In this document: piece after piece, positions 11,451-34,821 of the stretch | How positions within the stretch are numbered: position 1 is the first letter of the stretch | Layout: the number at the start of each line of letters is the position of its first letter | Source: Acidobacteriota bacterium | Lineage (GTDB): Bacteria; Acidobacteriota; Terriglobia; Acidiferrales; UBA7541 | Reading direction: 5' to 3' | DNA length: 35,949 nucleotides | Assembly (NCBI GenBank): GCA_016201215.1 | Contig: JACQDH010000154.1 | Location: 1 to 35,949 of the forward strand | The notes under the pieces: generated by a model | What the model saw: only the letters and a program-made list of their open reading frames with translations | Told to the model about the DNA's origin: nothing | Database searches by the model: none | Position numbers and translations under genes: made by a program

Positions 11451-11750
11451 GTGCCTCAGACACTTCAGGCCAAGCGGTTCACGGTCTCCGGAATGGTGCA
11501 GGGCGTCGGATATCGCTTCTTCGCCCAGCGCGTGGCCGAGGGCCTGGGCGTTGCCGGATACGTCAAGAACCTGCGCGATGGCCGCGTCGAGGTCTATGCC
11601 ATCGGCACGCCCGAGCAACTCGGCGAACTGCGCGGCGAACTGGAGCGCGGGCCGCGGCACGCCAGTGTCTCCAGCGTCAGCGAGGAAGATGCGGAAGTGC
11701 TTTCGCGCTGGGCCGACGGCTTCACGATTGCGCACGACTGGTCATTCTGA
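11451..11750 (+). CDS. acyP: acylphosphatase
   Basis: 99-residue cytoplasmic enzyme that hydrolyses acyl phosphates. The substrate-binding loop VQGVGYRFF supplies the catalytic Arg, and the catalytic Asn is in YVKNLRDGRVEV. Length is normal for the family. The GTG at 11451 keeps the first beta-strand (KRFTVSGMVQGVG); an ATG at 11493 would remove it. It is followed 21 bases later by apt on the same strand, so the two are probably cotranscribed. Confidence 0.93.
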   Translation: MPQTLQAKRFTVSGMVQGVGYRFFAQRVAEGLGVAGYVKNLRDGRVEVYAIGTPEQLGELRGELERGPRHASVSSVSEEDAEVLSRWADGFTIAHDWSF

Positions 11751-11771: not shown

Positions 11772-12293
11772 ATGGACGAACTCAAGAAGCTGATCCGGGA
11801 GATCCCCGACTATCCGAAGCCCGGCATCCTGTTCTACGACCTGACCACGCTGCTCAAGGATAAGAACGGCTTGCGTACTCTGATTGACCAACTCTATGCG
11901 CATTACGCCGGGAAGCCGGTGGACCTGGTCGCCGGCATCGAGGCGCGCGGGTTCATTTTCGCGCCGGCGCTGGCCTACCGGCTCGGAGCCGGGTTCGTGC
12001 CCGTGCGCAAGCCCTCGAAGCTGCCGGCGAAGACCGCGCAGGTGTCCTATCAGCTCGAGTACGGCACCGACACGCTTGAAATCCACGAGGATGCCGTGCG
12101 CGCGGGCCAGCGCGTGCTGGTCTGCGATGACCTACTGGCCACCGGCGGCACCGCCGCAGCCACCGTCAAGCTGGTGCGACAGTTGGGCGGCGAGGTGACC
12201 GGCGCGGCCTTCGCGGTGGAGTTGAGTTTTCTCAACGGCCGCGCTAAGCTCCCTGGCCTCGACGTCTTCTCCCTGATCCAGTACGACAAGTAA
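11772..12293 (+). CDS. apt: adenine phosphoribosyltransferase
   Basis: 173-residue purine salvage enzyme making AMP from adenine and PRPP. The family start [18 protein letters not shown] and the adenine/PRPP loop [10 protein letters not shown] are present. The PRPP-binding signature [16 protein letters not shown] follows. Length is typical. A purine-rich AGGGGAG lies ahead of ATG 11772. The gene lies between acyP and the OsmC-family gene, all on the plus strand, with a 53-base gap before the latter. Confidence 0.96.
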
Positions 12294-12346
12294 AACGCCG
12301 CATCGTTTGGGCCGCGGCGGTCATCTAAGCAGTGCGGAGGTGGCGG

Positions 12347-12811
12347 ATGGGCGAAATAGTTCACACAGCGAAGATCAGGATTGTTCAGAAGCAGAGGCCG
12401 CTGCGCGAGGCGCACATCGAAGGTTTCCCGGAGCCGTTGCGCTTTGGCATGCATGGCGGTTACGCCGCGTTTTACAAGCTGGAGCCCAAGGAAATCCTGC
12501 CTACGACCGTTGACCACCTGCTGGCCGCACTCGGCGGTTGACTGACCGGCACGCTGGCCGGCGCGCTGGAAGCGCGCGGAATCCCTGCGCAGGATAACCT
12601 TGTCGCCGACGTCGAAGGCCGCATCGAAGGTGAAGAGAAACTGTTTCGCATTACCGCCGTCCAGCTACGGTATCGCTTCAAGATCCCGAAGGGCAAGCGC
12701 GCCGAGAGCGACCGCGCGCTCGAAATCCACGAGCGCTACTGCCCGATCCGGCAGAGCCTCCAACGGGGGTTTGCGGTAACCTGGTTCGCTGACATCGCAG
12801 AGGCAGAATAG
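12347..12811 (+). CDS. OsmC-family peroxiredoxin, predicted selenoprotein (in-frame TGA at 12539)
   Basis: OsmC/Ohr-family thiol peroxidase gene of 155 codons with one in-frame TGA at 12539-12541 and a final TAG at 12809-12811. The ATG at 12347 has a near-perfect GGAGGT five bases upstream. Before the TGA the protein reads PTTVDHLLAALGG; after it, LTGTLAGALEARGI and then RYRFKIPKGKR and YCPIRQSL. In OsmC proteins the residue after ALGG is the peroxidatic Cys, and the resolving Cys lies in CPxxxxL, which is intact here. Sec at residue 65 would restore a normal 154-residue protein. A SECIS-like hairpin follows, and selA is present at 33382. OsmC proteins detoxify organic hydroperoxides in the cytoplasm. 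The alternative is a nonsense mutation or a sequencing error (TGC or TGT to TGA). Confidence 0.85.
12542..12577 (+). promoter_or_regulatory. putative bacterial SECIS element
   Basis: Two GC hairpins follow the in-frame TGA. The first is CCGGC/GCCGG (12546-12550 with 12557-12561, loop ACGCTG). The second is GCGCGC/GCGCGC (12561-12566 with 12572-12577, loop TGGAA). The second puts its apical loop 25 bases after the TGA with G at the second loop position, which fits the general bacterial SECIS model as I recall it (loop about 16-37 nt from UGA, a G in the first two loop bases). The stems share base 12561, so they compete by one pair only. Both lie inside coding sequence, as bacterial SECIS elements do. 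Confidence 0.65.
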
Positions 12812-28029: not shown

Positions 28030-28377
28030 ATGAAGGGGAGCCTTTCCAGCCACCCAGTGGCCCGCTACGCCGACATGCTGGCCGCTATGGGTGCCGAGCC
28101 CCGGCTGCGCATCATGCGCCTGCTGCTCTCGGCGCATCCAGAGGGGTTGGTCGTCGGCGACATCCAGGCCGAGCTGGAAATCCCCGGCTCGACGCTGTCG
28201 CACCATCTGGAAAAACTCAAGAACGAAGGCTTGGTGACGGTGCGTCGCGAGCGCCAGTATCTCTGGTACGCCGCCAATGCAGACGCCCTGCGGGAGCTGC
28301 TGACGTTTCTCTACGAGGAGTGCTGTTCGCGGAGCAAGGCCGTCAAGGCCCAAACTATTGTGCAGTTGAGCCAGTGA
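28030..28377 (+). CDS. arsR: ArsR-family arsenic-responsive repressor
   Basis: 115-residue winged-helix repressor. The recognition helix region is IPGSTLSHHLEKLKNEGLV and the wing VRRERQYLWY. Two adjacent cysteines near the C-terminus (Cys98-Cys99, YEECCSRS) probably bind As(III), as in ArsR types whose thiol site lies outside the alpha-3 helix. It heads the arsR-arsM-acr3-arsC cluster and should control it from the overlapping palindrome. It is transcribed divergently from the TPR gene. Confidence 0.93.
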   Translation: MKGSLSSHPVARYADMLAAMGAEPRLRIMRLLLSAHPEGLVVGDIQAELEIPGSTLSHHLEKLKNEGLVTVRRERQYLWYAANADALRELLTFLYEECCSRSKAVKAQTIVQLSQ

Positions 28378-28423
28378 GATCACAAACCGCCTGCGTTTCT
28401 GAGGCGTTGCCAAAGGAGGAGTT

Positions 28424-29245
28424 GTGAGTGAACGGGATATCCAGGAGATCGTGAAAGAGAAATACGGGCAGGCGGCGTTGCAGGTGACGCGCGGTGGCAG
28501 CGCCTGTTGCGGCGGCGCGGCCTCGACGGGCCAGTGCGACCCCGTCACCGCGAATCTTTACACCGCGAGCGAGACGGCGGAACTGCCTGCCGAGGCGCTG
28601 GCGGCCTCGCTGGGCTGCGGGAACCCGTCGGCCCTGGCGCAACTGCGTCCTGGGGAGACGGTTCTCGATCTCGGCTCGGGCGGCGGGATCGACGTCCTGC
28701 TATCTGCCCGCCGTGTGGGGCCCACGGGAAAAGCCTACGGCCTGGACATGACCGACGAGATGCTCGCACTGGCGCGCGAGAACCAGCGCAAGAGCGGCGT
28801 CGAGAATGTCGAGTTTGTGAAGGGCGCCATCGAAGCCATTCCTCTGCCGGACAACTCCGTGGACGTCATCATCTCCAACTGCGTGATCAACCTCTCAGCG
28901 GATAAGGACCGCGTGCTGGCCGAAGCCTTTCGCGTGCTCCGGCCGGGCGGGCGGCTGGCGGTTTCCGATGTGGTCGTTCGCGGCGAGATGCCGGCGGAGA
29001 TCCGGCGAAGCGTCGAACTGTGGATTGGCTGCGTTGCCGGCGCGCTCGAAGAGAACGAATATCGCGCCAAGCTGGCCCGCGCCGGCTTTGAGGACGTGGA
29101 GCTGGAGCCGACGCGGATCTATCGCGTGGAGGACGCGCGCGCTTTCCTTTCGCAGGCGGGCCTGGAGGTGAACGCCATTGCGCCGCTGGTGGACGAAAAA
29201 TTCATGAGCGCGTTTGTGCGCGCCCGCAAACCGCTGACGGTGTAG
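28424..29245 (+). CDS. arsM: arsenite S-adenosylmethionine methyltransferase
   Basis: 273-residue cytoplasmic enzyme that methylates As(III) to less toxic or volatile species. The SAM site [20 protein letters not shown] and the acidic GLDMTDEML are clear. The conserved arsenic-binding cysteines can be assigned to Cys65 (LGCGNP), Cys153 (ISNCVINL) and Cys203 (WIGCVAG); an additional SACCGG pair lies at 28-29. The GTG start at 28424 has a strong AAAGGAGGA. It is 46 bases after arsR. Confidence 0.95.
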
Positions 29246-29285
29246 CGGCAGTTCTCCGCAGAACGGGCGCGGAGGGAGCGAACCC

Positions 29286-30380
29286 CTGCAGGTAACACTT
29301 CCCGCGGTCTCCGCCGAAACAGCCGCCAACAGGCTGAACCTATTCGAGCGCTATTTGACCGTCTGGGTCACACTCTGCATGCTCGCTGGCGTGCTGCTCG
29401 GCAAATTCGCGCCGGGCGTCGTACAGGCACTACGCCAGGTGGAATTCGGACAAGGCAGCCAGGTCAACCTGCCGATCGCCGTGCTGATTTGGCTGATGAT
29501 CACCCCCATGATGATGAAGGTGGACTTCACCGCTATCCGCCACGTGGGGAAGCGCCCGAAGGGATTGCTGGTCACGCTGTTCGTCAACTGGCTGGTGAAG
29601 CCTTTTTCCATGGCGCTGTTGGCTTGGTTCTTTTTCCGGCACGTATTCGCGAACTGGATGGTGCCCGCGGAGGCAGACCAATACATCGCCGGGGCCATCA
29701 TTCTTGCCGCCGCACCATGCACGGCTATGGTTTTCGTCTGGAGCCACCTGACCGAGGGCGACCCAGCGTACACGCTCGTTCAGGTTTCGCTGAATGATTT
29801 GATCATGCTGCTTCTCTTCGCGCCCATCGTCCGCTTCCTGGTCAGCGGCGCGTCCTCACTCCGGGTGCCGTTTGGGGTGCTTCTCTACTCGGTGGTGGCC
29901 TTCATCGTCATCCCTCTGTCGTTGGGGGCTTCCTTGCGCGCCTGGTGGATCCGCCGCCGGGGAAAAGAGTGGTTTGAAAGCAGACTCCTTCCTGGGTTTG
30001 CTCCCGTGACCATCGCCGCGCTGCTGGCAACACTGGTTTTGATCTTTGCATTTCAGTCGGAGAACATCACGGCAAAGTACTTCCACGTTTTTCTGATCGC
30101 GATCCCCATTTCGCTGCAAGTCTATCTGAATGCTTCGCTGGCCTACGGGCTGATGTATTTTCTGAAAGTGCCGTACGCTGTGGCTGCGCCGGGAGCGCTG
30201 ATCGGCGCCAGCAATTTCTTTGAGCTGGCCGTGGCCACGGCCATCGTGCTGTTCGGGCCGGGATCAGGAGCGGCCCTGGCGACTGTGGTGGGTATTCTGG
30301 TGGAAGTGCCGGTGATGCTCTCGGTCTGCGCCGCTTGCAACCGGACCCGTCCGTGGTTCGCATCCTATGCCGACAGGTGA
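29286..30380 (+). CDS. acr3: ACR3-type arsenite efflux permease
   Basis: Inner-membrane As(III)/H+ antiporter with ten hydrophobic segments. The conserved cysteine region AAPCTAMVFVWSHLTEGDPAYTL is split here as AAPCTAMVFVW and LTEGDPAYTLVQVSLND; GASNFFELAVATAI is also typical. No ATG or GTG start exists in the frame, which opens at 29238. The first TTG (29355) would cut off the conserved LNLFERY segment. The CTG at 29286, with GGAGG ten bases upstream, keeps it and is preferred. The stop overlaps arsC by 14 bases. Confidence 0.92.
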   Translation: MQVTLPAVSAETAANRLNLFERYLTVWVTLCMLAGVLLGKFAPGVVQALRQVEFGQGSQVNLPIAVLIWLMITPMMMKVDFTAIRHVGKRPKGLLVTLFVNWLVKPFSMALLAWFFFRHVFANWMVPAEADQYIAGAIILAAAPCTAMVFVWSHLTEGDPAYTLVQVSLNDLIMLLLFAPIVRFLVSGASSLRVPFGVLLYSVVAFIVIPLSLGASLRAWWIRRRGKEWFESRLLPGFAPVTIAALLATLVLIFAFQSENITAKYFHVFLIAIPISLQVYLNASLAYGLMYFLKVPYAVAAPGALIGASNFFELAVATAIVLFGPGSGAALATVVGILVEVPVMLSVCAACNRTRPWFASYADR

Positions 30381-30810
30381 TCCCGCGGAGCAATGGAGGG
30401 TGCTGATTCTGTGCACGGGAAACTCCGCGCGCAGCCAGATGGCCGAAGGCATTCTTCGCACGCTGTCGCAGGGCACGATCGAGGTGCACAGCGCCGGAAC
30501 GCATCCCGCCGGCGTCCATCCGCTCGCCGTGGAAGTGATGAGGGAGATCAACATCGACATTTCCGGCCAGCGCTCCAAGTCAGTCGCCGAGTTCGAGCAA
30601 CAGCAATTCGATACGGTCATCACCGTCTGCGACAAAGCCGCCGAGAGCTGCCCGGTGTTTCCCGGGTCACCGGAGAGAATTCATTTCAGTTTTGAGGATC
30701 CGGCTGCGGTGGAAGGGTCTCGAGAGGAGAGGCTTCGCGCCTTCTGCCGCGTGCGCGACGATTTGACCGAGCGCCTGCGGCTGTTCCTCAAAACGCGCCG
30801 CCCTCAATAG
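30367..30810 (+). CDS. arsC: arsenate reductase, thioredoxin-coupled LMW-phosphatase type
   Basis: 147-residue enzyme reducing As(V) to As(III) for export by ACR3 or methylation by ArsM. The phosphatase loop LCTGNSARSQMAEG gives the nucleophile Cys16. The redox pair is Cys88 and Cys95 in VITVCDKAAESCPVFPG, as in Staphylococcus pI258 ArsC. FEDPAA carries the general-acid Asp. It overlaps the acr3 3' end by 14 bases and so is translationally coupled. It closes the operon. Confidence 0.95.
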   Translation: MPTGDPAEQWRVLILCTGNSARSQMAEGILRTLSQGTIEVHSAGTHPAGVHPLAVEVMREINIDISGQRSKSVAEFEQQQFDTVITVCDKAAESCPVFPGSPERIHFSFEDPAAVEGSREERLRAFCRVRDDLTERLRLFLKTRRPQ

Positions 30811-33201: not shown

Positions 33202-33381
33202 AAGTATGCAGGGAAACGCCAGGCAAAAATGCTAGTGCCGGCGCCGGTGGGCGTCAACGGCAAGCGGCCGACGAGGTGCGGAACCGCCAACGCGGAGGAT
33301 TCTGGCCGCAAGGTTCCCGTTCCTGCGGGGCCTCGGCGGCGGTTGCTCTGCCGCCGCGCCTGTGCTGAAATAGCGGGCACC

Positions 33382-34821
33382 ATGAAACCTTCAGCCGAGC
33401 GTTCTCCCGATCCGGCCGCGGATCCGCGCGCCGCGCTGCTTCGACAGATTCCCGCGGTGGATGAGCTGCTGGGCCGGCCGCATCTGGTGAGGCTGCTCGA
33501 ACGGGTGGACCGCACCGTGGTGGTGGAGATCGCCCGGGGGGTGCTGGCTGACCTGCGCAGCCTGATCGCGCGCGACCCGGAGGCGGCTGTTGATGCGCTC
33601 GCACCTGCGCAGCTCAACGAGCGCATCGCCGCCGAAGTCGAGCGCGCTCTCGCGTTTTCGCTGCGCCCGGTGATCAACGCCACCGGCGTGATCCTGCACA
33701 CCAACCTCGGCCGCGCGCCGCTGGCGACCGCCGCGATCGAGCACCTCCGCAAGACAACGACGCAATACTCGAACCTCGAATACGACCTCGCCGCCGGCGC
33801 CCGCGGCAAGCGTGACGTCCACACCGCGCGGTTGCTGGCCCGCCTGGTCGGCGCCGAGGCCGCCATTGTCGTCAACAACTGTGCCGCCGCTGTCTTCCTG
33901 GTACTGAACTCGCTGGCCAAAGGCGGCGAGGTGATCGTCTCCCGCGGCGAGCTGATCGAAATCGGCGACGGCTTCCGCATCCCCGACATCATGGCGGAAA
34001 GCGGCGCGATGCTGCGCGAGGTAGGCACCACGAACCGCACGCGCCTGGCCGATTACGAGCGTGCCGTCTCCGAGCGCACGCGGCTGCTGCTGCGCGTGCA
34101 CCCGTCGAATTTCCGCGTCGTCGGCTTCACCGAGAGGCCCTCGCTTGCGGAGTTGGTCGAGCTGGGCCGGCGCGCTTCGCTGCCGGTCTTCGAGGATCTG
34201 GGCTCTGGGTGCCTGGTGGACCTCTCCGCATACGGCATCGAAGAGCCGGTGGCCCGGGCAAGCCTCGCTGCGGGCGCCTCGCTGGTGTCTTTCAGCGGCG
34301 ATAAGATGCTGGGCGGGCCACAGGCAGGGCTGATTGCCGGCAAGAAGGAGCTTGTCGAGCGCATCCGGCGGAACCCGATGTTCCGCGCGCTGCGCGTGGA
34401 CAAGCTGACCATCGCCGTGCTGGAAGCGACGCTCAACGCCTGCTGGCGCGGCGTGCTGGATGAAATCCCCGCACTGCGGATGATCCGTCTCGCGCCGGAG
34501 GAAATCGAACGCCGGTCGCAAGCCTTTCTCAATGTGCTGCGGCCGCAGGTCCCGCCGGGCGCCGCGGAGATCGAGATTCGTCCCGGGGAGTCGGTGATCG
34601 GCGGGGGCTCGACGCCGGCCGAGCACCTTCCGACACATCTGATCACCGTGGAGAGCTCGCGCCATTCGGCGACGCAGCTTGAAGCGCGTCTGCGCCGGGC
34701 CACCGACGGCGCGCCGGTGCTCGCCCGTGTCGAAGACGAACGCTTGGTGCTCGACCTTCGCACCGTCTTTCCAGAGCAGGAGCCTGCACTCGCCGCGGCC
34801 CTGGCCGCCGCCCTGCGGTGA
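33382..34821 (+). CDS. selA: L-seryl-tRNA(Sec) selenium transferase
   Basis: 479-residue PLP enzyme converting Ser-tRNA(Sec) to Sec-tRNA(Sec) with selenophosphate. The ATG at 33382 begins MKPSAERSP. The N-terminal domain has LLRQIPAVDELLGRP; the core has VINATGVILHTNLGRAPL, YSNLEYDLAAGARGKRD, VVNNCAAAVFLVLN and the PLP lysine Lys308 in SFSGDKMLGGPQAG. Length is normal. selB, selC and selD are not in this window. Its presence shows that the organism probably makes selenoproteins, which bears directly on the TGA in the OsmC gene at 12347. Confidence 0.97.
   Translation: MKPSAERSPDPAADPRAALLRQIPAVDELLGRPHLVRLLERVDRTVVVEIARGVLADLRSLIARDPEAAVDALAPAQLNERIAAEVERALAFSLRPVINATGVILHTNLGRAPLATAAIEHLRKTTTQYSNLEYDLAAGARGKRDVHTARLLARLVGAEAAIVVNNCAAAVFLVLNSLAKGGEVIVSRGELIEIGDGFRIPDIMAESGAMLREVGTTNRTRLADYERAVSERTRLLLRVHPSNFRVVGFTERPSLAELVELGRRASLPVFEDLGSGCLVDLSAYGIEEPVARASLAAGASLVSFSGDKMLGGPQAGLIAGKKELVERIRRNPMFRALRVDKLTIAVLEATLNACWRGVLDEIPALRMIRLAPEEIERRSQAFLNVLRPQVPPGAAEIEIRPGESVIGGGSTPAEHLPTHLITVESSRHSATQLEARLRRATDGAPVLARVEDERLVLDLRTVFPEQEPALAAALAAALR

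Follow-up and report, generated by a model that had tools for sequence, protein, structure and literature searches.

An OsmC-superfamily gene with an in-frame TGA in an acidobacterial contig predicts a new selenoprotein subfamily in two phyla

The window, the whole 35,949-nucleotide stretch of DNA analyzed here, carries an OsmC-family gene at 12347–12811 (+) that is predicted to encode a selenoprotein of 154 residues with selenocysteine (Sec) at residue 65 and TAG as its stop. Direct reading gives 64 codons from the ATG, a TGA, 89 codons and TAG, in agreement with the original prediction of a single 155-codon frame whose sole interruption is the TGA at 12539–12541 (+). The Shine-Dalgarno sequence GGAGGT that had been noticed before the ATG is located at 12336–12341 (+), 5 nt ahead of the start codon. 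Read through, the protein matches the Pfam OsmC model PF02566 over residues 52–145 (E 3.1e-15, 56.8 bits, gathering cut-off 27.5 bits); the homology thus spans the TGA, as the similarity reported on both of its sides had implied. The TGA, taken here as U65, had been placed at the peroxidatic cysteine, and in alignments with OsmC paralogues and homologues residue 65 indeed falls on the peroxidatic Cys column. The putative resolving cysteine, Cys132 (codon TGC at 12740–12742, +), lies in the context YCPIRQSL and was also correctly described as kept, since it is invariant in 89 of 89 relatives. Automatic annotation had been expected to truncate or misjudge the gene, and a table-11 listing of ORFs of at least 80 aa does miss it. 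Two further OsmC genes, both without internal stops, are found in the genome of the window (G000; 3.29 Mb assembly, 80.6% complete, 268 contigs).

Directly upstream, across a 53 bp gap, lies a phosphoribosyltransferase (apt-like) gene (11772–12293, +) that is a probable operon partner, and ahead of it an acylphosphatase gene, acyP (11451–11750, +), which is the first gene of a conserved acyP-apt-osmC(Sec) cluster. This gene order recurs in four related genomes (G022, G028, G012 and G040). The acyP/apt operon context gave no functional clue and nothing pointing to peroxides. Farther along the window, the ORF at 33229–34821 (+) encodes SelA, the L-seryl-tRNA(Sec) selenium transferase (TIGR00474, 555 bits, cut-off 268), as had been noted; the profile match begins at 33439 and the true start is probably near there. 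A few kb before selA, an arsenic cluster (28030–30810) encodes an ArsR-type regulator, the arsenite methyltransferase ArsM, an ACR3 efflux pump and a low-molecular-weight phosphatase family protein of the arsenate reductase type. An Rfam scan of the window returned no match at gathering scores, and a plasmid search found nothing.

Comparison with relatives bears most directly on the TGA. Among 89 full-length relatives from Acidobacteriota and Thermodesulfobacteriota, the codon at the residue 65 column is TGA in 75 and Cys in 14, Cys being the only alternative. D56, G68, T69 and C132 are invariant across these sequences, H36 joins D56, G68 and T69 as invariant or nearly so, and the motif following Sec is UxxGT in 75 of the 75 TGA sequences and never UxxT. 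Within 61 related genomes, the clade of the window gene has TGA in six (G022, G028, G012, G047, G040 and G055) and Cys in four, all of one genus, while a second clade at approximately 35% identity likewise has TGA; nearly all other OsmC genes in these genomes are without an internal stop. The family is present in 33 of 396 Acidobacteriota genomes, and all 33 matches covering the site contain exactly one TGA. A chance TGA is excluded by this regularity, given its near absence from other OsmC genes. In a sample of 395 genomes of Thermodesulfobacteriota, the phylum of a Syntrophobacteraceae MAG, one TGA was found in 35 of 36 near full-length matches and none in the remaining one. A scan of all species, which used a Cys-only pattern ('GC') and was expected to return only Cys forms, recovered these from Acidobacteriota, from Geobacteraceae and their relatives, and from Actinomycetota.

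A maximum-likelihood tree of 59 sequences needs only three changes of the Sec/Cys label. One genome, G005, has the Sec machinery and two copies of the gene, of which the one in the second clade has Sec and the one in the first clade has Cys. Two Acidobacteriota copies (L087 and L088, from G156 and G113) resemble the Thermodesulfobacteriota version and share its hairpin register, which suggests transfer between the phyla. Nei-Gojobori estimates over 15 pairs, one saturated comparison aside, gave dN/dS of 0.01–0.17 before the TGA and 0.07–0.19 after it. These values indicate purifying selection on either side of the TGA, and hence that the downstream part is maintained as protein. Decay of the gene in relatives was seen in one frameshifted copy only (L145, G011:C35:13400-16600), a member of the window family that is interrupted by a frameshift as well as a TAG in a genome that has tRNA-Sec; either the gene is decaying or the assembly is wrong at this point.

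We then looked for the machinery of Sec synthesis and insertion. In the genome of the window, a selB match scores 279 bits over the first 238 model positions, with 237 residues seen before the contig ends, and a tRNA-Sec with anticodon UCA is present. The selD gene has its own in-frame TGA (L147, G000:C182:6500-9800), so that SelD is probably a selenoprotein as well. With selA included, everything needed to make and insert Sec is present in the genome, except that selB is cut short. Across Acidobacteriota, selA is found in 30 of 33 family-bearing genomes and in 222 of the 363 others (p 0.00025, a value that overstates the association because related sequences are not independent), and each of the three family-bearing genomes lacking selA has tRNA-Sec. 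Each of the 17 Sec-bearing relatives that were checked has a tRNA-Sec or a SelB that scores above cut-off. Five of the six Cys-only Acidobacteriota genomes have neither, the sixth (G452) having SelB. The tRNA search found no tRNA-Sec in G007, G019, G040 and G008, the weak matches in the first three being tRNA-Ser; since SelB is present in all four, the tRNA is taken to have been missed or left unassembled.

A SECIS-like hairpin lies at 12560–12578 (+), with the stem GCGCGCU / AGCGCGC and an apical loop GGA that begins 29 nt after the first base of the UGA, both in the window and in Acidobacteriota generally. The RNA following the UGA folds more stably than its synonymous recodings do (mean z -0.96, n 76), whereas control segments elsewhere in the same genes are not (mean z about -0.08; difference p 2e-11, overstated for the same lack of independence) and the same region of Cys copies has a mean z of +0.31. 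The eight positions of the Acidobacteriota stem are paired in 87% of cells, compared to 21–61% when the register is slid by 1–3 nt. Compensatory changes in two pairs support the stem across Acidobacteriota: one pair is A-U instead of G-C in 9 sequences, and the other is U-A instead of C-G in 4. In some of these cases one arm has an Ala/Val replacement and the opposite arm a synonymous change. The stem of the Acidobacteriota Cys copies contains mismatches, and three genomes (G047, G055 and G157; L024, L026 and L089) form the consensus stem poorly. Thermodesulfobacteriota have a different stem, which, counted from the first base of the UGA, begins 15 nt downstream; its positions are paired in 91% of cells, and GG usually lies in or near the loop. 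Since the hairpins of the two phyla differ, RNAalifold found no common structure when all 75 Sec sequences were folded together; treating the phyla separately resolved this.

Folded alone, the window sequence is less clear. Pair probabilities of its hairpin are mostly 0.7–0.97 in folds of 42–48 nt and 0.6–0.8 at 75 nt, and fall near 0 at 54–60 nt, where a competing fold wins; single-sequence folding is thus not decisive, and the z-score is weak (-1.06). The downstream hairpin that had been proposed is therefore conserved and covarying at the level of the family, and ambiguous in the single sequence.

Taken together, these comparisons make us nearly certain that the window gene encodes a real selenoprotein. 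An error of sequencing or assembly, or a pseudogene with a nonsense mutation, might be suspected in an assembly that is 80.6% complete and in 268 contigs, and the broken G011 copy indicates that loss does occur. However, an identical TGA codon in 75 sequences of two phyla with no other stop, purifying selection downstream of it and Cys as the sole alternative at the column leave this explanation with almost no probability, and we reject both error and pseudogene as effectively refuted by the comparative data. Barely more probable is that UGA encodes another amino acid, such as Trp under a changed code, or that a 64-residue product is made with occasional readthrough. The frame would be open if the TGA were read as any residue, but several family copies use TGA as their real stop, the internal TGA alternates with Cys only, and a tRNA-Sec with SelA, SelB and SelD is present. 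These three observations led us to reject an alternative code. As to truncation, a product ending at residue 64 would be without the second Cys and without the greater part of the OsmC domain, on which selection acts.

We compared the window family to the known OsmC-like selenoproteins. The original prediction mentioned such proteins from genome and metagenome surveys, and these do exist: a family with the motif UxxT, from the Sargasso Sea/GOS surveys, was reported in 2005 and 2008 (PMC1088965, PMC2398784) and is still the one family, with that motif, in a 2026 listing (PMC13188914). We infer that this survey family corresponds to the NCBIfam model NF041052 (OsmC_like_Se, cut-off 95 bits). The window gene belongs to a different subfamily. 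Membership in the described family would be suggested by the shared superfamily and by Sec at the equivalent reactive Cys, with Cys homologues in both cases. It is nevertheless improbable: the window protein has no match to NF041052 even at E 1, the relatives L021 and L027 reach 19.1 and 27.6 bits, far below the cut-off, and ordinary Cys OsmC paralogues reach 25–35 bits, so the window family scores no better than these. These scores and the UxxGT motif led us to reject membership. A further distinction from the NF041052 family is the occurrence of the window family, as found here, in genomes of Acidobacteriota and Thermodesulfobacteriota. No description of it was found in the openly accessible papers searched, supplementary files aside. 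From the UxxGT motif, the absence of the OsmC/Ohr glutamate, scores of at most 28 bits to NF041052 and the lack of a description found, our verdict is that the sequences define a putative new selenoprotein subfamily, in two phyla, within a known superfamily.

A separate observation concerns a canonical OsmC gene of another subfamily (L144, G034:C5, 360–362), in which a TGA falls exactly at the peroxidatic Cys (NPEELLAAAHAG-U-FTMALSAQL). It is followed by a strong hairpin, CCGCCC-AGUU-GGGCGG, that is absent in four Cys relatives. It is either another case of Sec in OsmC, independent of the first, or a single-base error in that assembly.

The AlphaFold model of the window protein (pLDDT 84) has the OsmC fold. 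Its top Foldseek matches are the OsmC structures 1nye and 1qwi with probability 1.00, although they superpose only loosely (TM about 0.5). Known OsmC structures are dimers. The window family has the fold and the two redox positions in common with E. coli OsmC/Ohr (1nye, 1qwi, 1n2f; TIGR03562, TIGR03561) but differs in having Sec for Cys, no Glu at position -10 and an Asp at -9; the window protein scores 25.0 bits against TIGR03562 (cut-off 85.8). With YhfA-type OsmC proteins (1ml8; COG1765) it shares the two redox residues, the lack of an Ohr-type -10 Glu and an acidic residue at -9, whereas its N-terminal half is distinct (HTSxxRI...GPxRxAxIEGF...GVHGGIxxFYxV), it has Sec, and the fold comparison gave 18% identity. 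Bacterial Sec peroxiredoxins and other Sec thiol peroxidases would be expected to use similar chemistry, with a peroxidatic selenolate resolved by Cys, while their thioredoxin fold is unrelated to the OsmC fold.

In the two-Cys peroxidases Ohr and OsmC, for which lipoyl systems are the reductant, an Arg and a Glu are found beside the peroxidatic Cys; YhfA lacks these two residues, and the biochemistry of its group is unknown (PMC8945050). Across the 89 window-family sequences both redox residues, U/C65 and C132, are kept without exception. At residue 20, 78 of the 89 have R and 7 have K, and R20 might be the catalytic Arg of the Ohr/OsmC type. The Glu position (Cys-10, residue 55) is occupied by L, I or V, next to the invariant Asp56 at -9. 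The prediction of a Sec-containing peroxidase thus holds for Sec, through the 75 TGA and 14 Cys sequences, the machinery and the hairpin; the peroxidase part is an extrapolation, and the window family does not conserve the Ohr/OsmC catalytic Glu.

We favor, with good but not full confidence, an OsmC-superfamily selenoprotein with SelB-dependent insertion of Sec65 and a peroxidase-type cycle with Cys132. SelB carrying Sec-tRNA(Sec) would bind the hairpin just downstream of the UGA on the translated mRNA, and Sec would be inserted at residue 65 in place of termination. The Sec65 selenolate, replacing the peroxidatic thiolate, would attack a hydroperoxide or similar oxidized substrate to form a selenenic acid, which Cys132 would resolve to a selenenylsulfide; a thiol system of the cell, probably of the lipoyl or thioredoxin type, would then reduce this again. 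The sequence itself shows an intact gene, Sec and Cys alternating in a single column, the Sec machinery, a hairpin with covariation, an invariant Cys132 and, through a predicted model, the OsmC fold; Sec incorporation in the cell, the substrate, the catalytic cycle and the reductant are what we infer from these. Hydroperoxide reduction appears the likeliest activity, and we hold this with modest confidence; another thiol redox reaction is its main rival. The gene product could be a selenoprotein and no peroxidase, using Sec65 and Cys132 on, for example, a sulfenylated, persulfide or quinone-type substrate. This is the less probable course but a serious one: like the YhfA group, the family has no counterpart of the Glu that helps Ohr/OsmC to reduce peroxides, H36, D56, G68 and T69 define a different active-site environment, and ordinary Cys OsmC paralogues are kept in the same genomes. 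Against it, the two redox residues are retained at the OsmC positions, and those Ohr and OsmC proteins that have been characterized reduce hydroperoxides (PMC8945050).

The broader proposal, of an unrecognized family in which Sec prevails in both phyla, two hairpin registers are used, Cys occurs mostly where the machinery was lost and the redox reaction may be other than the classical reduction of organic hydroperoxides, is in our estimate evenly balanced. Standard gene calling ends the gene at residue 64, and the family is therefore likely missed or misannotated in many genomes. Its recognition would add a selenoprotein for about 8–10% of the sampled Acidobacteriota and Thermodesulfobacteriota genomes, and would provide one family with two alternative hairpin registers. 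Occurring in Sec and Cys forms, and in genomes that have or lack the machinery, the protein would also provide a natural comparison set for the benefit that selenium brings to a thiol redox enzyme.
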